A stretch of 64,000 nucleotides of DNA from Arenibacter echinorum (GTDB lineage: Bacteria > Bacteroidota > Bacteroidia > Flavobacteriales > Flavobacteriaceae), in NCBI RefSeq assembly GCF_003259375.1, contig NZ_QLLN01000004.1, positions 374,495 to 438,494 of the forward strand, written 5' to 3'. Positions 6,911 through 26,027 of this stretch are shown here, piece by piece. The position numbers were made by a program, and so were the translations under genes. How positions within the stretch are numbered: the stretch's first letter is position 1; the number at the start of each line of letters is the position of its first letter. The notes under the pieces were generated by a model. The model did no database searches. It saw nothing but the letters and a program-made list of their open reading frames with translations, and was not told the origin of the DNA.

Positions 6911-6942
6911 GAAAAAAGCCCTCAACTTGCGTTGAAGGCTTT
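6911..6942 (-). terminator. Original tRNA-Asp terminator, now displaced
   Basis: Read on the minus strand, AAAGCCTTCAAC-GCAA-GTTGAGGGCTTTTTTC forms a stem with a GCAA tetraloop and a T run. It follows the displaced 3' half of tRNA-Asp. I infer that this was the chromosomal terminator of the tRNA before the element inserted; it is now about 19 kb from the functional gene. Confidence 0.8.
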
Positions 6943-6987
6943 AAGCGGTCCGGACGGGACTCGAACCCGCGACCCCCTGCGTGACAG
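6942..6987. repeat. Left attachment site (attL) with orphan tRNA-Asp 3' half
   Basis: This is identical over 46 bp to 25982-26027. Bases 6946-6987 are the last 42 bases of a minus-strand tRNA-Asp(GUC), from the anticodon loop to the discriminator base, without the 5' half. The match stops just past the anticodon loop, a usual crossover place for tyrosine recombinases in tRNA genes. It cannot give a working tRNA. Confidence 0.93.
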
Positions 6988-7100
6988 ACGATTAAAATCC
7001 ATTTTCATGTAGCGCTATTTATCGTCATATAGTCTGATTATCAACACTTTATGATTTTTTATTTTGCAGCAAACTTCTTTAATTATAACTTTAAGTGTCC

Positions 7101-7126
7101 ATTTGTTGTACCTATGTTGTACCCAT
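7101..7126. repeat. Left 26-bp repeat, candidate integrase arm-type sites
   Basis: These 26 bases recur perfectly at 25912-25937, just inside the other end, in the same orientation. Each copy holds two direct TGTTGTACC-like units (TTGTTGTACCTA and ATGTTGTACCCA) 10 bp apart, one helical turn. The position between the core site and the integrase gene suggests arm-type binding sites for the recombinase N-terminal domain. They also lie 12 bases before the integrase start and could autoregulate it. Confidence 0.75.
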
Positions 7127-7138
7127 TATTGAACTATT

Positions 7139-8347
7139 ATGTCAAGTATCAAAACAGTTTTAAGAAAAAAAGCATTTTCTGATGGCACTTATCCAGTTTG
7201 TTTGAGGGTGACCAAAAATAGAAAAACCAAATACTTTAATACCATATTTAGGACCGCTGAAAATGAGTGGAATTTTTCTTCCGGTTGTTTTAATAGAAAG
7301 AGTTCAAATTACATACAAAATAATAGGTTGTTGCTAAAATTTAAAGACCGTGCCTTAAAAATATACTCCGATCTTCAAATGGAAAAAGAGTATTTTAATC
7401 TTGACGATTTTAGTAAACGTTTCCGAGTAGACAACAATCCGACAAATGATTATGTATTTCCTTTCTGGGAAGAGATAATCTCAGAAATGAAACTAGGAGG
7501 TAGAATGGGAAATGCTACCATGTATGAAGAAACAATGAAGTCTATAAAACAGTTTTGCAAATTTAGAAAAATAAGATTTCAGGATATTACAAATACCTTC
7601 TTAAATAAATATGAGGCATGGCTCCGCTCTAGGGGTGGAACGGATGGTGGAATCAGTATTAAGCAGCGAACATTAAGAGCATTGTACAATAAAGCCATTG
7701 AGCGGAACATCATAAGAGACATCAACCATCCATTCAAGACGTATAAGATTTCAAAATTAAAAGGTCAGGGCATCAAAAAGGCATTGGATTTTGATCAGGT
7801 AACCAAAATCATCAACTTTGATATATCCGAATATCCACAATTAACGGATGCCAGAAATTATTTTGTGTTCAGCTTTTATACCAGGGGAATGAATTATACG
7901 GATATGATGGTTCTCAAATGGCAAGATGTTGATGCCTCCACCATTTCCTATATTCGAAATAAAACTAAGGGCAGGTTTGTAATTACTATTCTTCCGCCAG
8001 TGCGAGAAATCCTCAATTATTACAAGCAACATTCTTTACCTACTAAATACGTGTTTCCCATACTATTAAAGGATGGTCTAACTCCGGCCCAAATTGATAA
8101 TCGCAAAAAGAAGACCCTGGCCAAATATAATAGGGACTTAAAAGAAATAGCCCGCCTCTGTGACATAAACAAATCTTTGTCAAGTTATGTAGCACGACAT
8201 AGTTTTGCCAATTGCTTAAAACAAAAGGGAGTAGCTACAGATGTTATTGGTGAATCATTGGGGCATAAAGACTTAACTACTACTCAAGTCTATTTAAAGG
8301 AATTGGGGAGTACCGTACTTGACGATGCAGCGGCTTTGCTGCTTTGA
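7139..8347 (+). CDS. Tyrosine recombinase / phage-type integrase of the tRNA-Asp element
   Basis: A 402-residue site-specific recombinase of the usual Bacteroidota layout: N-terminal arm-binding domain (about 1-90), SAM-like core-binding domain (about 105-200) and C-terminal catalytic domain (about 215-390). Catalytic residues are visible: Arg249 in YTRGMNYTD, the YVARHSFA box (Arg353, with Tyr in place of the first His as is common in this group), His376 in SLGHKD and the nucleophile Tyr385 in TTTQVYLKEL. All key positions are kept, so it is probably active. It reads inward from attL and should integrate and excise the element at the tRNA-Asp anticodon region. Confidence 0.95.
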   Translation: MSSIKTVLRKKAFSDGTYPVCLRVTKNRKTKYFNTIFRTAENEWNFSSGCFNRKSSNYIQNNRLLLKFKDRALKIYSDLQMEKEYFNLDDFSKRFRVDNNPTNDYVFPFWEEIISEMKLGGRMGNATMYEETMKSIKQFCKFRKIRFQDITNTFLNKYEAWLRSRGGTDGGISIKQRTLRALYNKAIERNIIRDINHPFKTYKISKLKGQGIKKALDFDQVTKIINFDISEYPQLTDARNYFVFSFYTRGMNYTDMMVLKWQDVDASTISYIRNKTKGRFVITILPPVREILNYYKQHSLPTKYVFPILLKDGLTPAQIDNRKKKTLAKYNRDLKEIARLCDINKSLSSYVARHSFANCLKQKGVATDVIGESLGHKDLTTTQVYLKELGSTVLDDAAALLL

Positions 8348-8701
8348 CCGATTTTGATTATGTAGCTAGCAAAGTGAATTCAAAGACATGTATTAAAGTT
8401 GAAACGAATTGTCCCAAATCTTACCCTTAAACTTTGCGCATGGATCCTGTCCGATTTTTGTAGTGTTCGGGAAGATAATCGTAAAGCAAAAATCGGACAG
8501 GGCGCACTTGCTTAAGTAAATTTGGAACGGCATTTTTTTGATCCATGGCAATAACCGAGCGTTGGCAAGGATAAAGGCATGGGGCGTTTTTTCTAGGCCC
8601 CATGCTTTTATGAGCGGTTCCGAGGAGGTTGTAAAATCCAGAGGTTTTTCAACTTCCACAAGGATTGGATTTGTTTTACGGAATCATCCAATAGGGCAAT
8701 T
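8348..8701. other. Non-coding strip holding the oriT-like site
   Basis: About 350 bases lie between the convergent integrase and mobilisation genes. Frames here lack family-like features. The notable content is the inverted repeat at 8446-8501 with its GGGCGCACTT flank. The place where a relaxase gene would be expected downstream of the mobilisation protein contains no such gene. Confidence 0.55.
8446..8514. other. Candidate origin of transfer (oriT): inverted repeat plus GGGCGCACTT
   Basis: A perfect 15-bp inverted repeat (CCTGTCCGATTTTTG at 8446-8460, CAAAAATCGGACAGG at 8487-8501) with a 26-base loop is followed at once by GGCGCACTTGC. The minus strand there reads AAGTGCGCCCT, which equals the core of the nick region known for IncQ/pIP501-type (MOBQ) origins. 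It sits beside a BfmA/BtgA-type mobilisation gene. In IncQ origins the inverted repeat lies 5' of the nick on the cut strand, and here that order appears reversed, so the assignment stays a hypothesis. Confidence 0.5.
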
Positions 8702-9262
8702 CTATTGCAATTCTTTTTCTATTTTTATTTTAAGCTTTTCGAACTCTTCAGGGCTCATGTCCAATTGTAACCTGGGCTTCCCAAATCTGCTCTTCACCAA
8801 TTGTACCTTGTTCAAAAGGGCAATAAATTCTGCCCTGTTCTGCCTTAGGTCGCGTTTTAGATTGGTATATTCTCTTTCCATAACAAGCGCCTCCTCCACC
8901 TTTTTAAAAAACCTGTCCCTTTCTGGATCGTCTTCCCGACCCTCCAATAACAAGGGAGCTTGCCCCCGTTTCTTTCTTGGCGAGTGTTCAAATAAAAGTT
9001 CTATCATCGCCTTTGTCGGAAGTACTCCATTCTTTTCCATATTCTTCATCATGGCCGCCATCGCATCGAACCTTTTCTTTATCAGGTTAGTTATGGTCCT
9101 CCCGTTGGGACCAAGTGATTCCTTTGGGGAAATCTCGTTATAGATAAAGAAATCCAGCATTGTCTGCAAGGCCTCCGTATGGGTCTTGAAAGTCCTCCGC
9201 GAAAACGTCTGGAACTGCTTCGCTATATCTTTCTTAAAACGAATACCTATAAATGGTTTCAT
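8702..9262 (-). CDS. BfmA/BtgA-type mobilisation protein
   Basis: A 186-residue basic protein resembling the BfmA/BtgA (MobC-like) accessory proteins of Bacteroidota mobilisable elements, which bind oriT and help the relaxase. The N-terminus (KPFIGIRFKKDIAKQFQTFSR, THTEALQTMLDFF) looks like a ribbon-helix-helix DNA-binding region; the rest is helical and charged (EREYTNLKRDLRQNRAEF). The start at 9262 is supported by MKPFIGIRF. Two direct repeats lie 10-66 bases upstream. The relaxase that normally follows such a gene is missing here. The family call rests on recognised sequence style, not on a search. Confidence 0.7.
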   Translation of the reverse strand: MKPFIGIRFKKDIAKQFQTFSRRTFKTHTEALQTMLDFFIYNEISPKESLGPNGRTITNLIKKRFDAMAAMMKNMEKNGVLPTKAMIELLFEHSPRKKRGQAPLLLEGREDDPERDRFFKKVEEALVMEREYTNLKRDLRQNRAEFIALLNKVQLVKSRFGKPRLQLDMSPEEFEKLKIKIEKELQ

Positions 9263-9272
9263 AATTTTCTGT

Positions 9273-9556: not shown

Positions 9557-9863
9557 CTATTTTCTTCGGCTCGGGCCATCCAACTTTAGCCGGTTGAACA
9601 TCCTTACGGACCTATCCGATATCTGTGTTCCATAGCGATTCCCAATCTGGGAAAGGCTCAAATTGGTGGTGATATGTGTTTTTGTCCAAAGGGTTTCAAA
9701 GTTCCGCTAGCATTTGATCCGGATCTGAAGTGAGCAACCCTTTTTTAAGCGATATGATCCATACATTTTTAAATTCGGGATCTTGGTTCCGATACCTGTA
9801 AAAATGCCCTAAGAAACTCTTATTCGTTGCGTTCACTTCGAAATCAAGATCGGCATAGGCAAC
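9557..9863 (-). pseudogene. Decayed reading frame, DnaC/IstB-ATPase-like C-terminal remnant
   Basis: Two overlapping minus-strand frames without good starts read like pieces of one gene. The first (9863 to the TGA at 9696) includes HFYRYRNQDPEFKNVWIISL. The second (9706 to the TAG at 9557) reads WTKTHITTNLSLSQIGNRYG then ISDRSVRMFNRLKLDGPSRRK. The second resembles the end of DnaC/IstB-like ATPases found in Bacteroidota mobilisable elements (TTNLS, RYG, SRR). A frameshift near 9700 and the missing Walker motifs mark it as broken. The ATPase identity is tentative. Confidence 0.45.
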
Positions 9864-10017: not shown

Positions 10018-10099
10018 CTAAATTGTTTTTTTATCTTTTTTTATTACTTGTTTATTATGTTGGACACTTATGTCCATGCCGCCCGGTCAAAAGTGTCCA
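10018..10099. other. TGGACA/TGTCCA half-site cluster and in-frame stop downstream of the HTH gene
   Basis: TGGACACTT (10061-10069), TGTCCA (10071-10076) and AAGTGTCCA (10091-10099) form nested inverted repeats. They overlap the 3' end of the minus-strand helix-turn-helix gene. After the TGA at 10087-10089 the same frame stays open for 22 codons (ending VIKKDKKTI) to a TAG at 10018. The stop may therefore be a recent truncation, and the half-sites may be a binding site or iteron-like array. Confidence 0.4.
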
Positions 10100-10425
10100 G
10101 ACTGCCATGAAAGTATTGTCTGGTCAGGGTCGCCAGTGTCATATTCAAAATACAACATACTTCTCAGGTAGCGCTTTCTTCCATTAAAGGAGGTTTCCTC
10201 TATCCAGCCCAAGGACTTTAGTTGGGAAATGTACCTGCTTACCTGTCGTTCGGAAATATTTAGAAAGGAAGCAATGTACTTGTTGGACATGTAACACTCC
10301 ATACCGTTTTCGGTAAAACTGTGTATCTCCATGAACAAGATCTTGGCATACCAGTTCACCTCCGTGTTCAGATAGATCGATCTGGGTATCCAGATCCCCT
10401 GAAAATTTCTCTCAGTAGGTTTCAT
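10087..10425 (-). CDS. Helix-turn-helix protein, probably C-terminally truncated
   Basis: A 112-residue protein with a winged-helix/HTH_36-type domain: CYMSNKYIASFLNISERQVSRYISQLKSLGWIEE. Its opening (MKPTERNFQGIWIPRSIYLN) resembles the N-terminus of longer HTH proteins in Bacteroidota mobilisable elements, where it may act in replication or control of transfer. The frame ends at a TGA and would continue for 22 more codons. It lies 10 bases downstream of the excisionase-like gene on the same strand, so the two form an operon. Its role in this element is inferred from context. Confidence 0.65.
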   Translation of the reverse strand: MKPTERNFQGIWIPRSIYLNTEVNWYAKILFMEIHSFTENGMECYMSNKYIASFLNISERQVSRYISQLKSLGWIEETSFNGRKRYLRSMLYFEYDTGDPDQTILSWQSGHF

Positions 10426-10435: not shown

Positions 10436-10726
10436 TTATCTCTTGTTCTTGACTAGTGAATCATTGAAACGGTGTTCCAAGGTCTCGTCCGATAGATCGG
10501 GTTCCCCCAACAACCAGGCATCAATGGTATCTTTGTCAAAGAATTTCTGGCGGATATGGGGATTGTTCCCCATGGGAATCAACTTTAGCTGGGTCAGCTT
10601 GTAGATCTTGCTTTTGGAGAGTCCGGTGTATGCGGCCAGATCTTCCACGTTCATTGTTTTCTTGGTGTGGGACAACAGACCCTTGATGTCGGATAGCAGC
10701 CCCACTACGTTTTCGTTTTCTTCCAT
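10436..10726 (-). CDS. Excisionase-family (HTH_17/MerR-like) DNA-binding protein
   Basis: A 96-residue protein with the HTH_17 excisionase-type helix-turn-helix: MNVEDLAAYTGLSKSKIYKLTQLKLIP, then a wing (NPHIRQKFFDKDTIDAWL). Proteins of this kind act as recombination directionality factors or as regulators of transfer genes in Bacteroidota elements. It is the first gene of the minus-strand left module and probably sets the expression of the genes after it. Whether it binds the att arms or a promoter cannot be decided here. Confidence 0.75.
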   Translation of the reverse strand: MEENENVVGLLSDIKGLLSHTKKTMNVEDLAAYTGLSKSKIYKLTQLKLIPMGNNPHIRQKFFDKDTIDAWLLGEPDLSDETLEHRFNDSLVKNKR

Positions 10727-11050
10727 GATATTTGCTTTAAGATTTTCCTCAAATTAGTAGTGCGTTTATCACTAAAAGAAATCGAAGGAAATTTTAACGT
10801 TTGTAAGTGGTGTTTTTTGAAGAATTGTTGGAAGTTCGAACGATTTACTAAAAATAATTGAATAAGTGGTTTTAAGCCAATATTACAAAGTCTTATAAAA
10901 CGTTGATTTTATGAAACTACCCCTTTCAATAGATTAATCAATCTAACTTCTTAAAGTCCAAACAGATGATTTTTGTCATTTGAATGCCATCACATATTCT
11001 CGATATTTGATACTAGTTTAAAACATTTTATACTAGTTTAAAACCTGAAG
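10727..11050. other. Divergent intergenic region between mobility module and cargo
   Basis: A 324-base AT-rich gap between the excisionase-like gene (minus) and the amidase (plus). It must hold promoters for both directions. The only clear structure is the tandem repeat at 11010-11044 directly before the amidase start. No small gene is seen. Confidence 0.5.
11010..11044. repeat. 15-bp tandem repeat with 20-bp period before the amidase
   Basis: ATACTAGTTTAAAAC occurs at 11010-11024 and 11030-11044, in phase on the helix at about two turns, ending six bases before the amidase ATG. Each unit contains ACTAGT, a palindrome. The placement over the start of the gene suggests an operator, though a chance AT-rich duplication is possible. 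Confidence 0.55.
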
Positions 11051-12496
11051 ATGTCTAGTAGTTTTATTTTTAAATCCGCCATACAACTTGCCGAGCTTAT
11101 TCGTAACGGAAAAGCTACTTCCACAGAGGTAGTACAAGAACACATCGCGCATATCAAAAAGCATAATCCCTCATTAAATGCTGTTATTCTGTTATTGGAA
11201 GAAGAAGCATTAAGAGAAGCACTGACTTGTGACGAGGAAGCAAAAAAAGGGCAATTTAGAGGCCCTCTGCATGGGGTACCCATGACCATCAAAGAACAAT
11301 TTTGGCTAAAAGGTTACAAATCAACATTGAATAGTAATCGCTTAAAGGACTGGATAGCCCCGGAAGATGCTTTGGTTGTTACCCGCTTAAAGGAAGCAGG
11401 TGCAATAATATTGGGGAAAACCAATATTTCCAAGGAGATGTTGGACTACCAAGTTGATGGGGACATCTATCCCACATGTGTTAACCCGTACAATGAAGCC
11501 TATTCTCCCGGTGGAAGTTCAGGGGGTTCCGCGGTCGCTTTGGCCACAGGAATGGTTCCTATTGAATTGGGCGGTGATCTGGGAGGTTCAGTTCGTATAC
11601 CTCCAAACTTTTGTGGTGTTTACGGTTTGAAGACCACTGAAAATACGATACCCACCCATGGGCTGATTCCGAAACCTGAAGCAGTCAAAGGTTTTCTGAA
11701 CGATATGGCAGTGGTGGGGCCTATGGCGAGAACACCCCAAGACCTGGAGTTGTCATGGAACATTCTGAAGGGTGCAGATAAAACGGATAGAAGAATTCCT
11801 TCGATCCATTGGAAGATACACAATCAAAGGAGAATAAGTGATTACAAAGTGGCATGGGTCAATGGATGGAAAGATTATGACACCAGTAAGCAGACCAAAC
11901 AAGTAATCGAGAAATTTATAAGGTTGATCAGGGACCAAGGCGGAAGTACTCGGCAATTAATCCCTAAGGAAAATCTTCATCGCCGAACACTTGAGTTGCA
12001 TCAAAGGTTGTCATTCATGACCATTATGCAAGATCTTCCCTGGTTTGTGAAACCTTTAATGATAAAAGAATTGAAGAACGGATATTTAAAAGGCATGGAA
12101 AATATCCCTTGGAAATTCAAAGATACATTTTCCGATTATTCACAGCTCATAGGGCTAAGGATGCAAATTATCAACGAATGGGAAACCTATTTCGAAGAAT
12201 TCGATTTTTTGGTATGCCCGTCCGGCTTTGGTCCTGCATATAAGCGATGTAAAATTGGAACACCAATTATTTATGAGGGAAAAACTATGAAATACATTGA
12301 TTATGTATATCCGTACAATGCTTGTTTCAATGCAAGCGGTCATCCGGCTATAAGTATCCCATTGGGTCTTGGTAAAGAAGGATTGCCTGTTGGAGTTCAA
12401 GTGGTTGGCCCCTATTGGAGTGAAACTAATCTGCTATATTTTGCAAAATTGGTATCCAGACATACCGAAGGTTTTATAAAACACCACAGTTATTAA
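11051..12496 (+). CDS. Amidase-signature-family hydrolase
   Basis: A 481-residue amidase of the amidase-signature family, which hydrolyses amide bonds with a Ser-Ser-Lys triad. All three are visible: Lys81 in HGVPMTIKEQF, Ser156 in the GGSSGGSA loop and nucleophile Ser180 in GGDLGGSVRIP. The length fits the family. The C-terminal half (NACFNASGHPAISIPLGLGKEGLPVGVQVVG) matches the usual closing motif. The architecture suggests a general or fatty-acid-amide-type amidase rather than GatA, which would sit with gatB/gatC. No signal peptide is seen. First cargo gene of the element. Confidence 0.9.
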   Translation: MSSSFIFKSAIQLAELIRNGKATSTEVVQEHIAHIKKHNPSLNAVILLLEEEALREALTCDEEAKKGQFRGPLHGVPMTIKEQFWLKGYKSTLNSNRLKDWIAPEDALVVTRLKEAGAIILGKTNISKEMLDYQVDGDIYPTCVNPYNEAYSPGGSSGGSAVALATGMVPIELGGDLGGSVRIPPNFCGVYGLKTTENTIPTHGLIPKPEAVKGFLNDMAVVGPMARTPQDLELSWNILKGADKTDRRIPSIHWKIHNQRRISDYKVAWVNGWKDYDTSKQTKQVIEKFIRLIRDQGGSTRQLIPKENLHRRTLELHQRLSFMTIMQDLPWFVKPLMIKELKNGYLKGMENIPWKFKDTFSDYSQLIGLRMQIINEWETYFEEFDFLVCPSGFGPAYKRCKIGTPIIYEGKTMKYIDYVYPYNACFNASGHPAISIPLGLGKEGLPVGVQVVGPYWSETNLLYFAKLVSRHTEGFIKHHSY

Positions 12497-12978
12497 ATAC
12501 ATTTTATTGACCCAACTTGTACTGTTTTAAGAGCTAGGTTTGTAACCAAACCGATACTACGGTGACTTCTATCGAATGGGCTACAAAAGGCTGATATCAT
12601 CCCCTAATATCCAAAGCGTCCTGCATGTAACGCAGAAATTCCTGTTCGTATCGCAATAAGTAGTAATCCAATCCATAAAACGACCGGTTGATAGGACGGA
12701 TTTGGAAATTGGAAGTGTCTTAAGAATATATCCTTTCCGGGAACTTTCTAAAAATTAAGATGTAATGGTTGAACGATGGCAAGTAGGGTTCCTCAAAAAA
12801 AGTTCATTAGACTGATATTCATCATTTTATAATTGATTTTTCGAAGTTATTTTAAACCTTAAAACTAACATATCACGGGAAAGTTCGTGCCATTCTTTTG
12901 TGTTTTCTTACAGGACATTATCTAGATTGCAACCGGATACCTACCTGCCCGTCTAATTAGCAATTAAACTGAACTAGT
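12497..12978. other. Intergenic gap with a possible gene remnant
   Basis: A 482-base gap. On the minus strand, about 12598-12720 reads an in-frame 40-codon stretch ending in a TGA (NRSFYGLDYYLLRYEQEF then YMQDALDIRG). It looks protein-like but has no start, so it may be the tail of a lost gene. Nothing else is recognisable. The promoter of the FAD oxidoreductase should lie in the last 150 bases. Confidence 0.4.
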
Positions 12979-14814
12979 ATGAAATACAATACTATTATCA
13001 TCGGAGGTGGCTTATCAGGATTAACTGCCGGAGCTACCCTTTCAAAATTCGGAAAAAAAGTTCTGTTACTAGAGCAACACCACAAGCCTGGTGGCTGTGC
13101 CACTACCTTCAAGCGAGGCGATTTCATCGTTGAAGTCGGTCTGCATGAAATGAGCGGCGTACTGGAGAATGGTACGATTCCACAAATATTCGAAATGCTT
13201 GATATCGATCAAGAGGTCGACCTACTGAAAGTACCCGAATTCTATGCTGCCTATTCAGATCGTGGAAAATTCGTGTTCCCGCACGGCTATGATGCAGCGA
13301 CCAAGGCGCTGATCGACAAATACCCCGAGGATGCAAAAGGCATCAAGCGCTTTTTGAAAGTGCTTGCAGGAATTCGAAAGGAAGGGACCAATCAACCGCG
13401 TTCTAAATTGGTAAAGAAGCTCATCTATCCATTGATGCCCTTGCTGTATCCGAATCTTGTCGAAGCCGATCGACATACCGTAGGATCTTGGTTGGATAAG
13501 TACATCACGAATGAAAATGCAAAGATCGATCTGGTAGCACACCTTGTGTATTGGGGCGACGATCCCTATACATTATCGATGTTCTACTATGGGCTACCCT
13601 TTTCTGGATTCATCGAGAATGGAGGTCATTTCATAAAAGGAGGGTCTCAACAGCTTTCCGACCATCTCGCAGCATACATTGAAAAGAAGGGTGGCACTGT
13701 TCTATTGGGAAAAAAGGCAGAGAAAATCGTCACTGAGAACGGCCGAGTGACGGGAGTCACCTTCCGGGATAGTTTCAATGAAAACCTGGATCCCGTCACT
13801 ATTTCTTGTGATAATGCAATCGCCAACTGCGCCATTCCCGTAGTACCAGCTTTGCTGGATGAGCCCTTTGCCAGCTCCTTGAAAAAAAGCATCGGTGACA
13901 AAATCAATTCTTGCTCGCTGTTGTGTATATACCTCGGTTTCAGTCAGGATTTGGAGGAATTCGGGGTAAAACATTATTCAAATGTCATCGAGGGTGAAGA
14001 CGTTAAATCATTAAAGGACGTGAAGCCCAACCACCAGGGCGATTGGTCGAAGCGCAGATTCATTTTCGTTGACTATGGCAAGGTAGATTCCCAACTGGCA
14101 CCACCTGATAAATCAGAGGGAGTTATCTGTACGGTCGACTATATCGAGGATTGGAAAGATTTGAACGAAGATGACTACAAGGCGAAGAAGGAAGAAGTGG
14201 CCCAGATACTATTACAGCGATTGGAGAAGCAGTTTCCTGGAATTCGGGACAGCATTGAATACTACGAGGTTTCTACCTCTAAAACGATCCAGCGATATAC
14301 CTCGAATCCCGGTGGATCGGTGTACGGTTATGCACAAACCAAGAAGCAAACAGGAGACAAGCGATTCAGAAACAATTTCTTGATTCCCAACTTGTATTTC
14401 GCATCTGCTTGGGCATTCCCTGGTGGCGGATTTGAAGGTTCCATCATGGCCGGCTTTTTGGCCGCTTTGCAAATGAACAAAGACAAAATATGGTCAGAAC
14501 GTGATGATTCGAAGTATGTTGACCAGCGGATTGTTCCACTCTTGGGGCGTAAAAAAATCGATGCCAAAACGCTCGCATTGAGTTTTGAAAAACCAGAAGG
14601 ATTCCAATATCAAAAAGGACAGTATGCCATTCTTAATCTCATGAATCCGAAAGTGACCGAATTGGATTTGCCCTATCGTTGGCTTCCTGTTGTTTCTTCT
14701 ACGGAGGAAGAGAGCATACGGTTTCATATTGAACTTGATGCCAGCAGCTTTTCTAAAAGTTGTGAGCTATTGGAGATGGGTGATAAGGCTATTGTATTTG
14801 GAACCATGGGATAG
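12979..14814 (+). CDS. CrtI/retinol-saturase-like FAD oxidoreductase with truncated FNR-like tail
   Basis: A 611-residue protein. Residues 1-500 are a flavin amine-oxidase/phytoene-desaturase-like oxidoreductase: dinucleotide-binding GGGLSGLTAGATLSKFG (8-24), LLEQHHKPGGCATTF, and the C-terminal FAD motif FASAWAFPGGGFEGSIMAG. Relatives act on carotenoids or retinoids (CrtI, all-trans-retinol 13,14-reductase). After about residue 520 a new segment begins (KIDAKTLALSFEKPEGFQYQKGQYAILNL) that resembles the FAD-binding barrel of ferredoxin-NADP reductases. It stops at FGTMG before any nicotinamide-binding half. The tail may be a truncated electron-transfer module. Substrate unknown. Confidence 0.8.
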   Translation: MKYNTIIIGGGLSGLTAGATLSKFGKKVLLLEQHHKPGGCATTFKRGDFIVEVGLHEMSGVLENGTIPQIFEMLDIDQEVDLLKVPEFYAAYSDRGKFVFPHGYDAATKALIDKYPEDAKGIKRFLKVLAGIRKEGTNQPRSKLVKKLIYPLMPLLYPNLVEADRHTVGSWLDKYITNENAKIDLVAHLVYWGDDPYTLSMFYYGLPFSGFIENGGHFIKGGSQQLSDHLAAYIEKKGGTVLLGKKAEKIVTENGRVTGVTFRDSFNENLDPVTISCDNAIANCAIPVVPALLDEPFASSLKKSIGDKINSCSLLCIYLGFSQDLEEFGVKHYSNVIEGEDVKSLKDVKPNHQGDWSKRRFIFVDYGKVDSQLAPPDKSEGVICTVDYIEDWKDLNEDDYKAKKEEVAQILLQRLEKQFPGIRDSIEYYEVSTSKTIQRYTSNPGGSVYGYAQTKKQTGDKRFRNNFLIPNLYFASAWAFPGGGFEGSIMAGFLAALQMNKDKIWSERDDSKYVDQRIVPLLGRKKIDAKTLALSFEKPEGFQYQKGQYAILNLMNPKVTELDLPYRWLPVVSSTEEESIRFHIELDASSFSKSCELLEMGDKAIVFGTMG

Positions 14815-14850
14815 TACAATTATGATTTTTAGGTCAAAAAAAGAGATATC

Positions 14851-15543: not shown

Positions 15544-15552
15544 TTCTGAAAA

Positions 15553-17739: not shown

Positions 17740-17783
17740 GGAAACAAGAACATCAAACAAAACCGTACTAAAGAAAAGACCAC

Positions 17784-18458: not shown

Positions 18459-18512
18459 AGTTTTTACAGAAAACACAAAGACACAACAATGTAAATAGGA
18501 AACAGCATTAAC

Positions 18513-19529: not shown

Positions 19530-19574
19530 TGAAAATAGATGAGAAAATGGGAGTTAAGTCAACTAGAGTAAAAA

Positions 19575-20405
19575 ATGAAATCTATCTTTTCTAAACATCC
19601 AGTACTTATTTACTTTGCGCTAGTATTTATCATTTCTTGGTCAATGGTTGTTCTATTGTTCGGGACTAAAGGTATTCCAGCTACAGGAGAACTTCAAGAA
19701 TCAATTGGTATGACCATTTTATTGGGACCTAGCATTTCAGGCATTCTTCTAACATTGATCTATGATAAACGGAAAGGATTACAAATTATGTTCTCCAAAC
19801 TGCTTAAATGGAAGATTGGATTAAAATGGTACTTCATTGCATTATTAACAGCACCGCTCACAACATTATTAGGAATTCTGCTTTTTTCATTTTTTTCAGA
19901 AAATTATAGTCCAAATTTCGTTACATCTGACGACTTATTCAGTCTGATTTCCTTAGGAATCATTGGAGGTGTATTTGTTGCAATTTTCGAAGAGTTAGGA
20001 TGGACTGGATTTGCCATACCAAAATTAAAGAGTCGTTTTGGTGTTTTTAATACTGGAATGATTGTAGGGATTCTTTGGGGAGCATGGCACTTTATTCTCT
20101 TTTGGGAAAAGGACAGTTTTTCAAAAACGCTGCCTTTTTTATTATTGATTCTTCGTCTCTTTATATGGTTGCCCGCATATAGAATTATCATGGTTTGGCT
20201 TTATGATAACACCAGTAGCCTTCTAATTATAGTTTTAATGCATACAAGTCTAGTCGCAAGTTTAGTAATTATTGACCCTACGCTATCAAACACTGAACTT
20301 ATGATTTATATTCTGATTAGGGCAATTATTCTGTGGGCTATTGTAGGATCTATTTTCCTTTGGAAACCAATTAAAAATAAAAAAACAATGAGTGAAATGG
20401 GCTAG
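19575..20405 (+). CDS. CPBP-family intramembrane metalloprotease
   Basis: A 276-residue membrane protein with about eight hydrophobic helices and the CPBP (Abi/CaaX-protease-like) signature: EELGWTGFAIPKL provides the paired glutamates, WGAWHFILF the first histidine and LMHTSLVAS the second. Family members process prenylated proteins or protect against bacteriocins, and some lie in phage-defence loci; the role here is open. All key residues are kept. It is followed by a flavodoxin gene 37 bases downstream. Confidence 0.85.
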   Translation: MKSIFSKHPVLIYFALVFIISWSMVVLLFGTKGIPATGELQESIGMTILLGPSISGILLTLIYDKRKGLQIMFSKLLKWKIGLKWYFIALLTAPLTTLLGILLFSFFSENYSPNFVTSDDLFSLISLGIIGGVFVAIFEELGWTGFAIPKLKSRFGVFNTGMIVGILWGAWHFILFWEKDSFSKTLPFLLLILRLFIWLPAYRIIMVWLYDNTSSLLIIVLMHTSLVASLVIIDPTLSNTELMIYILIRAIILWAIVGSIFLWKPIKNKKTMSEMG

Positions 20406-20442
20406 CAAAATTTTGAAAAATCAATAACTAAAGCAAAACATT

Positions 20443-20961
20443 ATGAAAGGTGCAATTTTCTTCTCAGGTAAGTACGGCAGTACGGAACAATACGCCAATT
20501 GGATCGGCAAGGCTACAGGATTGCCGGTATTCGACATTAAAGATGCCCATGCCGCCGATTTATCAGAATACGATTTTTTAGTATTGGGTAGTTCAATTGT
20601 CTATTTTAAGCTTACTATCCGAAAATGGGCAAGTGCAAATTTATCTAAACTTAATGGCAGATCAAAAATCTTATTCTCGGTCTCCGGTGCAGGACCCAGC
20701 GACAAACTCGAAAGATGGGTTGCCGCTTCCTTTCCTAGTCAATTATTGACACAAATGGAACATGTGGCACTTCGTGGCAAGTTAGACCATTCAAAACTCA
20801 GTTGGTGGCTTCGAAAAATCTTGTGGATGGGTTCGCTCTTTAACCCCGACCCTCAAGCCAGAAAGGAAGAACGTGGTGGATTTGACTATATGGACAAATC
20901 TAGTATTGAACCAATTCTAAAAATTATTGAGCAATTTCAATACAGTGGGCATAACACATGA
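20443..20961 (+). CDS. Flavodoxin-domain protein (HemG-like)
   Basis: A 172-residue flavodoxin-like protein. The FMN phosphate-binding loop is FFSGKYGSTEQYANWI, then YDFLVLGSSIVYFKLTIRKWA and FSVSGAGPSD, the order seen in menaquinone-dependent protoporphyrinogen oxidase HemG and related flavodoxins. The C-terminus has a long LSWWLRKILWMGSLF segment, which may touch the membrane. It probably carries out two-electron reduction with FMN; partner unknown. Last plus-strand gene of this block; it converges with the next gene across seven bases. Confidence 0.75.
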   Translation: MKGAIFFSGKYGSTEQYANWIGKATGLPVFDIKDAHAADLSEYDFLVLGSSIVYFKLTIRKWASANLSKLNGRSKILFSVSGAGPSDKLERWVAASFPSQLLTQMEHVALRGKLDHSKLSWWLRKILWMGSLFNPDPQARKEERGGFDYMDKSSIEPILKIIEQFQYSGHNT

Positions 20962-20968
20962 ATTTTAG

Positions 20969-21673
20969 CTAAAAAAGTACATCTAGTCTGATGCTGCCCC
21001 AGATTATATGCCAAAAAAGGTAATATACCAAACGAAGTGTCAACATCAATATAAAACCATACTGCTTAAAAGCTACTAACTGGACCCAATTGAATAGATA
21101 CAAGTTCATCCAAACAACCATGGCTGCCCACAGGGGATAGTCATCCATAAACACTTGATAAGAAGGTTCGAGGAGCGCCACAATGCCCAGTACGATCCAA
21201 ACTGGTTTTAGAAGTCCTATGGCCGGTAAGAACCTGTTAAGAACAATCATCAACACGGCCAAGGGCACTACATGAAATAACATTTCGACCAAAAAGGCGA
21301 TGGCAGGATAGAACAAGAGAGATTCAGGAAGTAGGATGTTCATCCCTTGTGGAAATACAATGGCCAAGTCTACAAAAATTGCAATGGTTACGAATAGAAG
21401 CACAGTCAGGGAAAATTTTATGAAAATCTGAGGCTTTACTTTCCGGTGGATGTCAAACCATTTGTTGTAGAACAAGAAAGTCAAGGCCAAGCTTCCGGAA
21501 ACTGCAGTGACCCCAAAAAGTGTCAATGGATTAAAATTTTTGAAAAACCTGGAAAATATATCATCGTTGAGATGGTACAAAGTGACCGTAATGATTGTAG
21601 ATACAAACAAAAGAGTAAGAAGGATCACAAATTGTTTGCTTTGGGAAGCAAAGAGGGTCTTAAAATCTTTCAT
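20969..21673 (-). CDS. Multi-pass membrane protein, possibly a divergent CPBP protease
   Basis: A 234-residue protein with about seven hydrophobic segments. VEMLFHVVPLAVLM and RLVYYLFWHIIWGSIR place a glutamate and two histidines in helices in a pattern like degenerate CPBP proteases, but the paired Glu motif is not clear. The name is therefore tentative. It follows directly on the next upstream membrane gene (one base between stop and start region), so the two are cotranscribed. Confidence 0.55.
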   Translation of the reverse strand: MKDFKTLFASQSKQFVILLTLLFVSTIITVTLYHLNDDIFSRFFKNFNPLTLFGVTAVSGSLALTFLFYNKWFDIHRKVKPQIFIKFSLTVLLFVTIAIFVDLAIVFPQGMNILLPESLLFYPAIAFLVEMLFHVVPLAVLMIVLNRFLPAIGLLKPVWIVLGIVALLEPSYQVFMDDYPLWAAMVVWMNLYLFNWVQLVAFKQYGFILMLTLRLVYYLFWHIIWGSIRLDVLF

Positions 21674-22135
21674 TTATTGACTTCCTTTGCGAGTTTTTAA
21701 ATGACGTCTGGCTATCCAGACCACGATAACCCCGATTACTCCCAATATTGACATAATCGCTGCAAAATATATCCAAGTTCGGTCAGAATATTGCAACGGC
21801 CTGTATTCAGGTCGATAATCAAAGTCAATCCAAGGTCCAACTCGTCCCAATATAAAAATCAGTACCCGTATTGCGTGTAGTATAATCGCTGTAGCCGCGA
21901 GGCGCAATGTTATTTTAAGCCACTTTCTTTTATTGGATATCCACCATAGTATGGAGGAGAACAACCAGCCCAAATCAAAAAGAAACTCCATGAAGAGCAA
22001 AGCTGCCACCCAGCCTACCATGGATATCATTGAATTTTGCGATAACATAATGATAGTTCGGACAAGTAGGATGCTAGCTCCGGCGACGAAGAAAAAGGCG
22101 TCTAACCTATGCTTGAATGAAAAATTATCTTTCAT
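21674..22135 (-). CDS. Four-helix membrane protein of unknown function
   Basis: A 153-residue membrane protein starting MKDNFSFKHRLDAFFFVAG. The frame is open upstream to 22198, but the ATG at 22135 overlaps the TGA of the preceding gene as ATGA, a common translational-coupling signal, and is chosen. Hydrophobic segments include LDAFFFVAGASILLVRTII and FAAIMSILGVIGVIVVWIARR. No family recognised. It sits between a cysteine-rich soluble protein and another membrane protein in a minus-strand operon. Confidence 0.6.
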   Translation of the reverse strand: MKDNFSFKHRLDAFFFVAGASILLVRTIIMLSQNSMISMVGWVAALLFMEFLFDLGWLFSSILWWISNKRKWLKITLRLAATAIILHAIRVLIFILGRVGPWIDFDYRPEYRPLQYSDRTWIYFAAIMSILGVIGVIVVWIARRHLKTRKGSQ

Positions 22136-22644
22136 GTTGCCAACTCTCCAAACAGCACCATATAATTTTGTCCCCTTTCCTTGGCACATTTTGGGCAATA
22201 AGCATAGTGTACATAGAAGTCTTTGACCTCTTTGCCCTCTTCGGCCAAATCTGCTTCCAATTGTTTCATGAACTTAGGTGTGTCCTTAAAGGGGCCATCA
22301 AATACGCGACTCTTGAATGTTCCTGAAAGGGTTATGTTTTGGGCATCGGGGACTATATCGGAGACTGATAGGTACATCTCAGTTTTGAAAGCTGTTGGAT
22401 CCCTGAACAGCAGTAGTATTTCCTCCTTATTTTCAGCGAGTTTATTGGCAACTTCTGCTAAATTCATCATTTTGGTTACCCTTTTGCCTATCATGGGTGG
22501 CAAAGGAATATGAAACAGTGTGGGCACCGATGCTTTTATAAATTTTTTTCGATTCCAATTTAAGGTTTTGTTCTCCCACTTTTCAGGATAGAATGTGGGA
22601 CAACATTCCTCTGTTACTTTTTTTGCATTTTGTATTTGTCTCAT
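22132..22644 (-). CDS. Conserved soluble protein with CC and CPKC motifs
   Basis: A 170-residue protein with an early Cys-Cys pair (EECCPTFYPEKW) and a late Cys-x-x-Cys (AYCPKCAKERGQNY). The middle has SDIVPDAQNITLSGTFKSRV and FDGPFKDTPKFMKQ. The four cysteines could bind a metal or be redox active; this is inference. I recognise the pattern from uncharacterised proteins but cannot name a function. Its stop overlaps the next start by ATGA, so at least the two genes are coupled. Confidence 0.65.
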   Translation of the reverse strand: MRQIQNAKKVTEECCPTFYPEKWENKTLNWNRKKFIKASVPTLFHIPLPPMIGKRVTKMMNLAEVANKLAENKEEILLLFRDPTAFKTEMYLSVSDIVPDAQNITLSGTFKSRVFDGPFKDTPKFMKQLEADLAEEGKEVKDFYVHYAYCPKCAKERGQNYMVLFGELAT

Positions 22645-22665
22645 AGCAATAACTTTTTTGAATTT

Positions 22666-23427
22666 CTAAATCTTACTATTTATTTGTTCTTTCAAGATAT
22701 TCCGAAAACGGGTGGCGCTGAGATAATGGTCTTCCAACAATTTACCATTGTGTAACAGACTGAACACGCCAAAACCAGAAGGTGCCATTTTTGCTTCTTT
22801 TACGGTATTTATTTTTGAAACTTTCAAATCAACATTATAATCCATCGCAACATTTAGTATAGCAGCAACAGACTTCTCGTTCCAAGGACACTGGTCAGCA
22901 TAAAGTAGATGCCAGCCTTTGTAGTTTTTTTGTTGGTCCGTCCAATTGTAAAATTTAGGATAACCAGCATTGCTGTTCCATGTTTTCGATAAAAGTTCGA
23001 ACCTGTCTTTAGTTTCAATTTGTTCAAACCCATTTTTCTCAAAAATGTTTTTATTGGCAAGCCAACCACCTTTACTTGTTATAACACATACACCATCCAT
23101 ACATTTGGCTTTTCCTTCTTTTTCCGCTTCTTCAATAAGTATAGAGCCATACCCTTTACTCCGATCATTTTTAGAGTAGATATAGGTACAATGAATAAAC
23201 ATATAATTATCGGCATCTATTGGTCGCCAAGCATTTTTGGCCGGAACATATTCAATAAAGCCGATCATCTTGTCTTCTTCGCTTTTCAAGATTTTGATTC
23301 TTAACCCTTCTTTATGACGTTTTATAAACCAGTTTAATTTATCCTTAAATCCTTGTCTTTTGGTATCCTTTATACAAAAGAAAGTTTCCTTGATTGCATT
23401 CTCCGGCGTAACCTCGACTATTTTCAT
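22666..23427 (-). CDS. GNAT N-acetyltransferase with C-terminal YoaP-like domain
   Basis: A 253-residue protein. Residues 1-150 form a GNAT acetyltransferase domain, with acetyl-CoA loop NDRSKGYGSILIEEAEKEG. Residues 165-250 resemble the YoaP domain (GWHLLYADQCPWNEKSVAAIL, GFGVFSLLHNGKLLEDHYLSATRF). The substrate is unknown; related proteins occur next to stress or antibiotic-resistance genes. The GWHLLYADQCPW stretch has a thioredoxin-like placement of a single Cys. Its start ATG overlaps the stop of the NTF2-like gene (ATGA), so the two are translated together. Confidence 0.75.
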   Translation of the reverse strand: MKIVEVTPENAIKETFFCIKDTKRQGFKDKLNWFIKRHKEGLRIKILKSEEDKMIGFIEYVPAKNAWRPIDADNYMFIHCTYIYSKNDRSKGYGSILIEEAEKEGKAKCMDGVCVITSKGGWLANKNIFEKNGFEQIETKDRFELLSKTWNSNAGYPKFYNWTDQQKNYKGWHLLYADQCPWNEKSVAAILNVAMDYNVDLKVSKINTVKEAKMAPSGFGVFSLLHNGKLLEDHYLSATRFRNILKEQINSKI

Positions 23428-23828
23428 TGTTTTTCTTTAACAGTTGTTATAATTTTCGCTGTATGAGCAATAGGTATATCCCAAGCTTCTTTAATCATAC
23501 CGTCGATAATACACCACACAACAACTGCATCAATCTCGATTGGTTTACTTTCTAATGACAAAGAATCTATAACATGTGTAATAATTAGTTCATCTCCTAT
23601 AGGCATTATGGATATGGGATTTACTTTAAAAGAACCCTTGGTGAGATCTTTTATTTTTTGGAAGAAATCCGTTAAACCAGAGAGTCCGAAATAGTCTCCT
23701 TCTAACTCGGATAGCTTAGGATTAATATAGTGCCAAACGAAATCTTCGGCTAACACCTCAGCCAAAGAATTAGGGTCTTCAGGGTTGAACCTCTTTAAAA
23801 TACTGATATTCAAATGTTGTTTATTCAC
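23424..23828 (-). CDS. NTF2/SnoaL-like protein
   Basis: A 134-residue protein of the NTF2-like/SnoaL cone fold: LAEDFVWHYINPKLSELEGDYFGLSGLTDFFQKIKDLT is the helical front part and VVVWCIIDGMIKEAWDIP the closing strand pair. Members bind or turn over small hydrophobic molecules. It is the first gene of a minus-strand operon of five and overlaps the GNAT gene by four bases. Function is not predicted further. Confidence 0.7.
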   Translation of the reverse strand: MNKQHLNISILKRFNPEDPNSLAEVLAEDFVWHYINPKLSELEGDYFGLSGLTDFFQKIKDLTKGSFKVNPISIMPIGDELIITHVIDSLSLESKPIEIDAVVVWCIIDGMIKEAWDIPIAHTAKIITTVKEKQ

Positions 23829-24396
23829 GATGTCAACTTATAACTAGCTGTTTTTTTAGACTAAATTACCTTCATTCTCCTTTAGGCAAAAAGAGACTAT
23901 TGAGCAAAGTCACCTAAATTAAATTGCTATAGTTTTAACTTTACACTTTTAAGCTTCTAACACTAAATATACTGACCATCAATTACTTAAGAAATGACAT
24001 AAATCACTAAAGATTTCTTATTTCGGTTACTTGCCAATCGCATTCACTGTTTTCACCTATTGAACATGCGAAATTATTAATGCACGTATAAAGAAAGTGT
24101 TTATCAGATTTATGTTCTGATCGATGATAACCCCATTTTCAATCAATTTCTCATCTGGAAAACCTATAGCACATCTTTTCATAACCATGCTTAACCTGAT
24201 GAATATCATTGATTCGTTTTTATTTGAGAGATACATTTACTTAAGGACCATATAGTTAGAAAATTTTAAAGCGTTAGCGTCGTAGATATGAATGTGAATA
24301 CTACTATAAGAAGGGCTAAGAAGAAAGTATAGATAAGGCTTGGTATAAAACTCATTTAGCGGTTTGCATTTCACTATATAACAGTAGAATATAATC
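23829..24396. other. Intergenic region, nothing recognised
   Basis: A 568-base AT-rich gap between divergent genes. I find no protein-like frame, no perfect repeat and no tRNA. It must contain promoters in both directions. Confidence 0.5.
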
Positions 24397-24819
24397 ATGT
24401 TGGAAAATCTAAAAATTAATGTGAAAATCAAGCTTGCTTTGTATTGGATAGCTCTGATGTTCTTATATATCTATAACGATATATTGTCTTTGTATCAGCC
24501 TGGTCATGTTGCAGAACTCGCAGAAGGCCACTCGCAAGGGGTGCAATTTACCCCGCCAATCTTGATTGGTGCGGCCGTGCTCATGGCTCTTCCAGGCATA
24601 ATGGTATTACTTTCAGTAACGATAAAGGCGCGAGCAAATCGCTTGGTGAACATTATTATGGCCATATTTCATATTCTTGTGCTAATCGCCACACAATTTA
24701 TTGGCGAGGGGGAAACCTGGTTGTATTGGCGGTTATATGAGATATTGGAATTGACACTTTTATTGCTGATTATCAGATTGGCCTGGAAGTGGCCACACAC
24801 TACAAAGAACCTTGAATAA
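24397..24819 (+). CDS. DUF6326-like four-helix membrane protein
   Basis: A 140-residue membrane protein: LALYWIALMFLYIYNDILSLYQPGHV, then PPILIGAAVLMALPGIMVLLS, a third helix and LYEILELTLLLLIIRLAWKWP. The layout (YIYNDIL, PG near the first loop, four helices) is that of small DUF6326-type proteins of Bacteroidota. No function is known. It is followed about 100 bases on by a DUF4386 gene on the same strand. Confidence 0.65.
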   Translation: MLENLKINVKIKLALYWIALMFLYIYNDILSLYQPGHVAELAEGHSQGVQFTPPILIGAAVLMALPGIMVLLSVTIKARANRLVNIIMAIFHILVLIATQFIGEGETWLYWRLYEILELTLLLLIIRLAWKWPHTTKNLE

Positions 24820-24921
24820 AAATGGCTCAAATTGAAATATATTTTATTCAATCGGAAAAGGGAAAAAAGTAAAGGTGAAAAAGCTATTATAGTGTGAAGC
24901 CCACAAGTAAAAATATGAAAT

Positions 24922-25548
24922 ATGAAAATTGGTATTCTAAATCTATCACTAAGAAAAGCAGCTGTAATCGTTGGCATTGCCTTCATCACTTCAGTTTTTA
25001 TCGTAACTATAGTTGATGATTTTCTTTTAGCCAATTTTGTAGTCCCGGGCGATACCGAAGCATTAGCCCAAGATATTGAGGGTAATGGAAGACTATTTGG
25101 TTTTGCTGTTATAGGTTATCTACTAGTACTTACCCTTGATGCTATTATTGGTCTCGCCCTATATGTAGTTCTGAAACCGGCCAATAAGGATCTTGCGTCG
25201 CTAACGGCAGTTCTAAGGTTGCTCTACGCCTTTACTGTGATCATTGGAGTGTTTGCCCTGGCATTTCAAACAATCGATGTTTACGGCTATGCATCCCTAA
25301 AACTTGTAGGATACATATTTTTTACCTTACATATCCTTGTTCTTGGTTATACGGTTCTCAAGTCGGGCTATATCCCAAAAAGCCTTGGCATTTTGTTGGT
25401 TGTTGCATCGTTTACATATATTGTGTTTTTTGTAGATCTTCATCTACCTGAAACACTTAATTTAACAATAATGTTAATGATGTTTATGGCGGAACTTTCA
25501 CTAAGCATCTGGCTTATAGTGAAAAGAAAAAGACTCCCTGAAAATTAA
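24922..25548 (+). CDS. DUF4386 membrane protein (copy 3)
   Basis: A 208-residue DUF4386 protein with about six membrane helices: KAAVIVGIAFITSVFIVTIVDDFLL, LTLDAIIGLALYVVLKPANKDLAS, LHILVLGYTVLKSGYIPKSLGILLVVASF. The SGYIPKSLG stretch matches SRYVPKSLA of copy 2. It is the last clear cargo gene before the right end. Three members of one little-studied family in a single element is unusual. Confidence 0.8.
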   Translation: MKIGILNLSLRKAAVIVGIAFITSVFIVTIVDDFLLANFVVPGDTEALAQDIEGNGRLFGFAVIGYLLVLTLDAIIGLALYVVLKPANKDLASLTAVLRLLYAFTVIIGVFALAFQTIDVYGYASLKLVGYIFFTLHILVLGYTVLKSGYIPKSLGILLVVASFTYIVFFVDLHLPETLNLTIMLMMFMAELSLSIWLIVKRKRLPEN

Positions 25549-25615
25549 TTTTAGTGAAATTACAATTAGAGCCTCGAGGTATTGTTAATTAGGAATGAAA
25601 AAAAACTTGATTGGT

Positions 25616-25843
25616 TTAAGTGAAAGTATGAAAAATCAAGAAAATAGCAGTTATCGATGAATAGGAGATATCTTTAAAGAAAAGCAAACGACATATAACA
25701 CAGGCTTTTATGAAAAGCCTTATGTCAGTACCGTAAAACGGCCGTTTTCTGATACACTTTTCCCAGAGCGGAGCATCTTGGATGAGAGTGTCCCATTTCT
25801 GGTCTTTTTTAGTAGTCTCCTTAATTAGCATTTTATGGGACAA
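25616..25843 (-). CDS. Doubtful small ORF near the right end
   Basis: A 75-residue frame (MSHKMLIKETTKKDQKWDT, LWEKCIRKRPFYGTD) on the minus strand, reading away from attR. It has no recognised domain; the C-terminal third is hydrophobic and AT-coded. It may be a real small gene or the eroded end of an element gene. Confidence 0.25.
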   Translation of the reverse strand: MSHKMLIKETTKKDQKWDTLIQDAPLWEKCIRKRPFYGTDIRLFIKACVICRLLFFKDISYSSITAIFLIFHTFT

Positions 25844-25911
25844 CTATTTAATCAAGAAAGTGACAAAAGAAGTTATTCAACTAAGAAATTATCGTAATTA
25901 AAAAAATGAAA

Positions 25912-25937
25912 ATTTGTTGTACCTATGTTGTACCCAT
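25912..25937. repeat. Right 26-bp repeat, candidate integrase arm-type sites
   Basis: This is identical to 7101-7126 and in the same orientation, 44 bases inside attR. It contains the same two TGTTGTACC-like units one helical turn apart. Two such copies, one per end, fit the P and P' arm sites of a tyrosine recombinase. Confidence 0.75.
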
Positions 25938-25940
25938 CTG

Positions 25941-25980
25941 AAAACAAAAAGGCCTCCAATCTCTTGAAGGCCTTTGTTTA
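25941..25980 (-). terminator. Terminator of tRNA-Asp supplied by the element
   Basis: On the minus strand AAAGGCCTTCAA-GAGA-TTGGAGGCCTTTTTG forms a stem with a GAGA tetraloop and T run directly after the tRNA 3' end. It differs in sequence from the displaced host terminator at 6911-6942, which fits an element that restores both the tRNA 3' end and a terminator. Confidence 0.85.
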
Positions 25981-25981
25981 C

Positions 25982-26027
25982 TAAGCGGTCCGGACGGGAC
26001 TCGAACCCGCGACCCCCTGCGTGACAG
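25982..26027. repeat. Right attachment site (attR) inside tRNA-Asp
   Basis: This is the second copy of the 46-bp core repeat, here part of the full tRNA-Asp gene. The identity with the left copy ends at 26027, in the 5' side of the anticodon stem. The element thus rebuilds the tRNA on insertion. Confidence 0.93.

Follow-up and report, generated by a model that had tools for sequence, protein, structure and literature searches.

How can a chromosomal island with an integrase and no relaxase of its own be expected to travel between cells? This question is raised by a 19-kb element (positions 6942-26027) in a stretch of 64,000 nucleotides, hereafter called the window, from Arenibacter echinorum (contig NZ_QLLN01000004.1; G000:C4:374495-438494 in our set of genomes). 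An initial annotation, made from the letters of the window alone, had recognised the insertion, and in this it was right; it had overlooked a mobilisation module that consists of a sequence resembling an origin of transfer (oriT) and a gene for the mobilisation protein BfmA. We consider the element to be probably a 19-kb integrative, conjugation-mobilisable island without relaxase, in which an integrase is combined with an oriT and an accessory mobilisation protein, and we infer that it moves between cells. Such an island would fall into the iOriT class; the accessible part of PMC11389934, where both iOriT and iMOB elements are named, describes members of this class that employ the relaxase of an integrative and conjugative element (ICE) or of an iMOB.

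The insertion itself is real and precise. An exact 46-bp direct repeat (6942-6987 and 25982-26027) brackets a unit of 19,040 bp; it is the longest exact direct repeat in the window with copies more than 8 kb apart, and the longest such repeat in 30 mononucleotide shuffles of the window measured 17 bp. ARAGORN finds a single tRNA in the window, tRNA-Asp(GTC) on the minus strand (25985-26059; 67.5 bits with the Rfam tRNA model), and confirms what had been proposed for the two attachment (att) cores, namely that the right copy is the 3' part of this intact gene and the left copy an orphan 3' half. Inside each end lies an exact 26-bp repeat (7101-7126 and 25912-25937, both on the plus strand, 26 of 26 bases identical), 113 bp inward of the left core and 44 bp inward of the right one, composed of two near-copies of the 11-bp TGTTGTACCYA; these are likely candidates for the arm-binding sites of the integrase, and a similar repeat stands beside the core at other occupied sites. 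The integrase, a tyrosine recombinase of 402 aa (7139-8347, plus strand), matches the Pfam families Arm-DNA-bind_5, Phage_int_SAM_5 and Phage_integrase. Its catalytic residues had been called intact, and indeed an alignment with five other integrases shows the Arg (YTRG), Lys (TKG/TKV), ARH, GH and Tyr motifs retained; in all six sequences a Tyr stands in place of the first His of the HxxR box. Tyr at this position is common in Bacteroidota integrases. Orthologues with 84-98% identity occur in congeners, and five of seven such loci abut the tRNA-Asp core; the other two (L066 and L070, on G011:C21 and G004:C22, 84-88%) do not, so that the integrase is not tied to tRNA-Asp everywhere.

The tRNA-Asp locus of the congener G015 is, by its arrangement, a natural empty site: the native terminator (AAAGCCCTCAACTTGCGTTGAAGGCTTT) directly follows an intact tRNA-Asp. 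About 0.9 kb past this terminator lies a flank that shares 76% identity with window 3206-3992. In the window the same native hairpin (6915-6942), which abuts the intact tRNA-Asp in G003 as well, has been displaced to the left end of the element, where it adjoins the orphan half of the tRNA; after the intact tRNA there now stands a hairpin of the element itself (25948-25975, with a 12-bp inverted repeat), which occupies the native terminator's place. The locus thus has a tRNA 3'-end repeat at both borders, an integrase beside one of them and an empty counterpart in a relative, as befits an element that targets a tRNA. Because of the repeats, the arm sites, the integrase, the empty site and the orthologous integrases that stand at the same core with different cargo, we regard the insertion as precise and driven by the integrase; at the level of sequence, this evidence demonstrates a site-specific tyrosine-recombinase insertion at the 3' end of tRNA-Asp, with the tRNA rebuilt and given a new terminator. 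The initial annotation, which had read a precise integrative element with both ends intact and proposed a comparison with relatives lacking the insert, is therefore borne out by G015 and, through the arm repeats, on firmer ground than it had stated.

The region downstream of tRNA-Asp was surveyed in 18 Arenibacter genomes (L009-L021 and L023-L027), where loose patterns for the native and the element terminator both fired on some sites, which were classed by eye and by the arm repeat. The arm repeat of this element family lies beside tRNA-Asp in seven of the 18 (G000, G006, G011, G013, G014, G016 and G017); a native-type terminator without arm repeat is present in G003, G015 and G012, the last with two tRNA-Asp copies, other tandem repeats, judged by eye, in G001, G005, G007, G009 and G010, and another terminator in G002 and G004, and the sequence of G008 reads N at this point. 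Such varied occupancy marks the tRNA-Asp site as a hotspot. Several distinct tandem repeats are found after the same tRNA-Asp; they look like arm sites that belong to unrelated integrases, and each is accompanied by a terminator hairpin. Insertions at this gene seem to exchange its terminator.

Adjacent to the integrase gene is a noncoding motif of 99 bp (8413-8511, plus strand), first noticed as a conserved stretch in related loci, which we regard as a candidate oriT. An alignment of 19 motif sequences, 18 of them distinct, shows long hairpin arms (8446-8460 and 8487-8501 in the window), an ATCCTG box (8444-8449) and a loop of 26 nt that is conserved, and in the window the arms match at 12 of 12 positions. 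In sequence the box is similar to the nic site of the IncP type. When folded, a single strand of 156 bases with the motif does better than shuffles of it (2 of 200 were equally good; z -2.9). Across the alignment 95.2% of cells are paired in the hairpin, a value as high as in none of 500 shuffles and compared with 42-57% in slid versions; likewise, there are 37 double-change cells vs 13.3 in shuffles, and the covariation score is 0.388 vs 0.140. A covariance model (E<=0.001) located 111 sites; they are spread over 25 of 100 genomes of relatives, among them all 18 of Arenibacter, which hold 93 of these sites; the search used stricter filters, by which weak sites may be missing. At E<=1e-5 the motif was matched in 45 of 397 sampled Flavobacteriaceae genomes, corresponding to 34 of 237 genera. 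No RNA family in Rfam matches it at E<=1, a threshold at which the window gave the tRNA, two below-gathering matches over the left att core and terminator, and one over an open reading frame (ORF) of the cargo. Three motif copies have other arms (L285, G003:C1:837954; L282, G012:C23:27666; L251, G017:C33:101587; 41, 50 and 89 bits) and adjoin a relaxase-like ORF of about 770 aa with a small neighbour, which suggests a second relaxase type using a related site.

The meaning of the motif is best read from the relaxases beside it. The host genome has a single PF03432 relaxase, on another contig (C1) than the island, and a motif lies just beyond its operon. This relaxase is MbpB-like (NF041420, E=4e-27, under the equivalog cut-off) and adjacent to an MbpA protein over its own cut-off; a search for the borders of its element on C1 gave no long repeat, the best being 15 bp. 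With this protein as query, 47 matches were obtained from the 100 genomes, of which the 35 with at least 43% identity were used, a 49-residue fragment and 11 matches at <=29% identity being excluded. Within 3 kb of 31 of the 35 there is a motif, 30 of these relaxases being on the opposite strand to it and 26 at a distance of 473-502 bp; the remaining four (G045, G053, G062 and G065) sit in genomes where the covariance model found none. This near-constant linkage makes an oriT the likeliest meaning of the motif, which is probably the oriT of that MbpB-like relaxase. The relatedness of oriTs that is expected of an iOriT thus takes the form of a motif common to the MbpB-linked sites, with oriT function in the island a candidate only. 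For the number of relaxase-less sites, the 80 motifs that have no close MbpB-like relaxase give an upper limit: seven of them sit 2.3-10.2 kb from an MbpB-like relaxase, three are next to a larger relaxase-like ORF that belongs to the same cluster, and three more, all in one stretch of G003, adjoin a relaxase fragment.

In the island the neighbour of the motif is BfmA (8702-9262, minus strand, 186 aa), a mobilisation protein of the BfmA/BtgA family with the NF041200 N-terminal domain (E=7e-19, 67.8 bits vs a curated cut-off of 24). Its dN/dS of 0.09-0.18 in 11 of 11 comparisons with homologues places the gene under purifying selection. Among 108 of the 111 motif neighbourhoods that were read (the three others are relaxase-linked), there are 18 in which BfmA lies directly 3' of the motif and is encoded by the opposite strand; its distance from the motif start is about 290-875 bp at 13 of these sites and about 130-680 bp at five. 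At none of the 28 relaxase-linked sites read does BfmA stand beside the motif. At these 18 sites, a count from which G050:C11 and G024:C5 are excluded owing to their other arrangement, BfmA occupies the place of the relaxase operon. It is at least 76% identical to that of the window at 12 of them and more diverged at the rest, two copies being truncated and one having a stop. The flanks covered, which at six of the 18 sites are shorter than 9 kb on one side (contig or locus ends), revealed no MbpB-like or MobB relaxase; one site (G013:C7) has a larger relaxase-like match within them.

Behind BfmA there usually follow an ATPase and an HTH_36 gene, or primase-like and DUF5906-type genes, and then an HTH_17 gene. 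In the window these are, all on the minus strand, a relic of the ATPase gene (9560-9805; tblastn 57% over 84 aa vs full copies of at least 175 aa, intact in some sister elements), an HTH_36 protein resembling phage replication initiators (10087-10425; PF13730, phrog_270), and an HTH_17 protein (10436-10726; PF12728), a candidate excisionase whose match to the excise model TIGR01764 is below cut-off. Pfam scans of 23 ORFs of the element named no relaxase family, no family of a type IV secretion system (T4SS) or coupling protein, and no phage structural or packaging gene; PHROGs, run on five left-end ORFs only, gave integrase, replication-like and excisionase-like matches. An ICE, a canonical integrative mobilisable element (IME; iMOB) and a prophage or phage satellite were rejected for want of a T4SS, an own relaxase or structural genes, respectively, in the ORFs scanned.

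The host genome holds genes of each proposed helper type. Besides the MbpB-like relaxase on C1, contig C5 carries TraG, over its cut-off, and at about 34-37 kb from it a cluster of coupling protein, MobB relaxase (NF041495, E=6e-115) and a BfmA 53% identical to that of the island; we infer that TraG and this cluster belong to one conjugative element. Moreover, the genome contains a second island (C4:630974-663402) with an exact 43-bp repeat ending in tRNA-Asn, 22-bp arm repeats (TGTTGTCCCTATGTTGTCCCCA) inside each end, an integrase 54% identical to that of the window and, near the tRNA end, a motif at 660691 with BfmA (86%) at 661006. The motif arms of this island (GATTCGATTTTA/AATTCGATTTTA) closely match those of the resident MbpB-linked site (AATTCGATTTTA).

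If the island is indeed mobilised, the HTH_17 protein would help the integrase to excise it as a circle, BfmA would bind near the hairpin, a relaxase acting in trans would nick at the ATCCTG box, and the strand would exit through the coupling protein and T4SS of a conjugative element. The relaxase would most likely be MbpB-like and come from a relaxase-bearing mobilisable element, or alternatively be the MobB of the conjugative element.

Several observations weigh against this reading. The hairpin arms of the window (GTCCGATTTTTG) are not like the arms found at the resident MbpB-linked motif (AATTCGATTTTA) and are near those of a relaxase-bearing element in the same tRNA of G011 (GTCCGGTTTTTG); the arms may or may not serve as a pairing code, and a strict code is unsupported as it stands, relaxases that are 93% identical being able to differ in arms. 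Five of the 18 Arenibacter genomes (G001, G002, G008, G010 and G012) have motifs without a close MbpB-like relaxase, and a search of the 15 kb that surround the resident MobB cluster gave no motif. Of 15 BfmA matches with at least 75% identity, 12 lie at sites of the kind described and three (G011:C23, G006:C30 and G015:C9) have no listed motif nearby. No plasmid or phage record matched the motif. Two of the five covariation measures are not clearly above shuffles, with seven pairs changed on both sides vs 5.2 (50 of 500 shuffles reach 7) and 14 further pair types vs 12.9 (192 of 500 reach 14). Finally, only a relic is left of the ATPase gene that lies between BfmA and HTH_36, and the module could therefore be decaying. 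The last point, together with the lack of a relaxase in the ORFs scanned and the deviating arms, would fit an integrative element that has lost its relaxase and ATPase and retains motif and BfmA as leftovers, immobile except perhaps for excision. We nevertheless judge such decay unlikely: BfmA has an open reading frame and evolves under purifying selection, the two arms of the window's hairpin match at 12 of 12 positions, and 18 sites, spread over different genomes, repeat the arrangement in which BfmA is present and no MbpB-like relaxase is near, which argues for a lineage and not for a single wreck; the cargo, moreover, seems to have been gained recently (see below).

Still less probable, in our view, is that the motif is no oriT but some other element, for instance an origin of replication or a structure that regulates or terminates the mobilisation operon, the island moving by other means such as phage packaging or natural uptake. 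The motif does lie at the 3' end of mobilisation operons, the usual place of a terminator, and near replication-like genes in many elements, and no experimentally mapped oriT of this motif family was found in the literature searched; yet a long conserved loop and an ATCCTG box beyond the stem are unlike a terminator, distance and orientation to one relaxase type are nearly constant, the motif also stands beside integrases without a mobilisation operon, and no Rfam family matches it. As a variant of the favoured explanation, not exclusive of it, the helper might be the conjugative element's own relaxosome, with the island's BfmA pairing with MobB and the MbpB-like relaxase unneeded. This we regard as possible, if doubtful. 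BfmA, MobB and the coupling protein are neighbours in the host, the five genomes just named have motifs and lack a close MbpB-like relaxase, G016:C11 has a strong motif (103 bits) at a distance of about 3 kb from a coupling protein that shares 65% identity with that of the host, and weak ones occur near MobB-like and coupling genes on G024:C5 (50 bits) and G017:C115 (57 bits). Similarly, in the accessible part of PMC10865816 btgA and btgB of plasmid pBFTM10 are cited as needed for transfer and btgA as binding the oriT. The empty surroundings of the resident MobB speak against this variant, however, and the tightest and commonest partner of the motif is the MbpB-like relaxase.

We keep to the mobilisable, relaxase-less island as the best explanation of this locus. 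Beyond it, one may tentatively envisage a three-tier network of hitchhiking in Arenibacter and other Flavobacteriaceae, in which oriT-only islands marked by BfmA take their relaxase from small mobilisable elements of the MbpB-like kind, which themselves depend on the T4SS of MobB-type conjugative elements, the variable arms of a shared oriT act as pairing code, and the same integrase with swapped cargo moves polysaccharide-utilisation, defence-like and metabolic sets through one tRNA gene.

The cargo of the island (about 15 kb) is mostly metabolic-looking or uncharacterised. It comprises, on the plus strand, an amidase (11051-12496; PF01425, E=2e-83), a protein resembling FAD amine oxidases and carotenoid desaturases (12979-14814; PF01593, with CrtD/CrtI models under cut-off), two DUF4386 proteins with a third small protein without Pfam match (14851-16787), and a run of GyrI-like (under cut-off), DUF4332, quinone-oxidoreductase-like ADH, Rce1-like CPBP protease and flavodoxin genes (17182-20961); then, on the minus strand, two unknown proteins, a Bact_hydrolase (PF20603), a GNAT/YoaP and a SnoaL-like protein (20969-23828), and again on the plus strand DUF6326 and a third DUF4386 protein (24397-25548). 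The earlier statement had been that this is no known resistance or metabolic set; the family scans that were run named no resistance gene. As for defence, PADLOC on three cargo proteins gave a short desaturase match only. A loose first look at 39 relatives, with few candidates scored per genome, did not find the block 10950-25900 as a unit, the longest pieces, both in G009, being one of 3.9 kb at 87% (from about 20.4-24.3 kb of the window) and one of 0.8 kb at 83%. The failure to recover the whole block from congeners suggests a recent gain, and the opposite case named in the initial annotation, an ancestral block of the same genes, was not encountered in that search. At the right end, up to about 115 bp of 25727-25841 recurs in whole or part at 10 places in seven other Arenibacter genomes (75-88%), some copies being within 10 kb of an oriT-like motif.

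In G011, G016 and G013 the same tRNA-Asp core and an orthologous integrase bracket 13.3, 63.4 and 101.8 kb, respectively, vs 19.0 kb here. The larger elements may be composite: that of G016 has a right end resembling the G011 type and a left end of the window type, and in G013 the motif/BfmA module is about 27 kb from the integrase. The G016 stretch includes three sulfatases, a GH127, a TonB-plug/SusC-like protein and a SusD protein, and the G011 element has primase-like, mobC-like and PF03432 relaxase genes besides a C5-methylase with a HATPase protein. The G011 cargo (L065, 7362-12536) consists of the C5-cytosine methylase, a 907-aa protein with two HATPase domains and two unknown proteins; the methylase matches defence-type methylase models, its neighbours match nothing in PADLOC, and the whole is possibly a defence set.

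Outside the element, the segment between the shared left flank and the orphan core (4080-6776) holds an amidohydrolase-like gene (4146-5129) and a nucleoside-hydrolase-like gene (5713-6774), both named by eye, which are missing there in G016 and stand in reversed order in G017 (L077, G017:C110, 7183-9582), and a copy in G004 shares 99% identity with the nucleoside-hydrolase-like gene. The start of the window has a near-identical duplication, with stretches of 47, 21 and 25 bp that lie in register in 1-95 and 880-974 and probably reflect a repeated domain.

The 99-bp hairpin together with BfmA, and without a relaxase, provides a searchable signature for islands whose mode of moving is otherwise obscure. 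Since the same integrase and site carry the G016 stretch with its sulfatases, GH127 and SusC/SusD-type proteins, this vehicle may spread marine polysaccharide degradation. In a single strain, moreover, it can here be asked directly whether an oriT-only island is able to use the relaxase of a second element that is itself non-conjugative. A search by title found no prior report of such an island in Flavobacteriaceae, which is weak evidence, as most subscription papers lie outside the literature searched.

In the accessible part of a 2017 review (PMC5704250), the IMEs then known from Bacteroidetes all encode a relaxase, and relaxase-less ones are from Firmicutes and Proteobacteria. Among those described there, our island is like MGIVflInd1 in having a tyrosine integrase and no relaxase, the oriT of MGIVflInd1 being related to that of its helper, and like MGIVmi1 and MGIVchHai6, with their accessory MobI, in having one relaxosome accessory gene, as BfmA would be. 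It differs from these gammaproteobacterial islands in its phylum, its oriT-like sequence, its accessory protein, its target, which is tRNA-Asp and not yicC or trmE, and its best-matching relaxase, which is found on mobilisable elements and not on a conjugative element. With NBU1, NBU2, Tn4399 and Tn4555, IMEs with MobP relaxases in the same source, it shares a chromosomal location and a presumed dependence on conjugative elements of Bacteroidetes, and with NBU1 also a tyrosine recombinase and the 3' end of a tRNA as target; in contrast to the island, these four encode their own relaxase. An accessory protein of the BfmA/BtgA family is likewise known from BtgA/BtgB of pBFTM10 and from the host's BfmA-MobB pair, where it is accompanied by a second mobilisation gene or a relaxase, whereas here BfmA stands alone beside the motif. 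The 13-kb element in tRNA-Asp of G011 has an integrase 87% identical, the same att core and arm sites, and a motif with near-identical arms, but its primase-like, mobC-like, relaxase and methylase/HATPase genes replace BfmA and the cargo of the window. On our best reading, the island is thus a hitchhiker that has only an oriT and, as accessory gene, BfmA, a variant in a phylum for which the accessible part of the 2017 review (PMC5704250) lists relaxase-bearing IMEs only.

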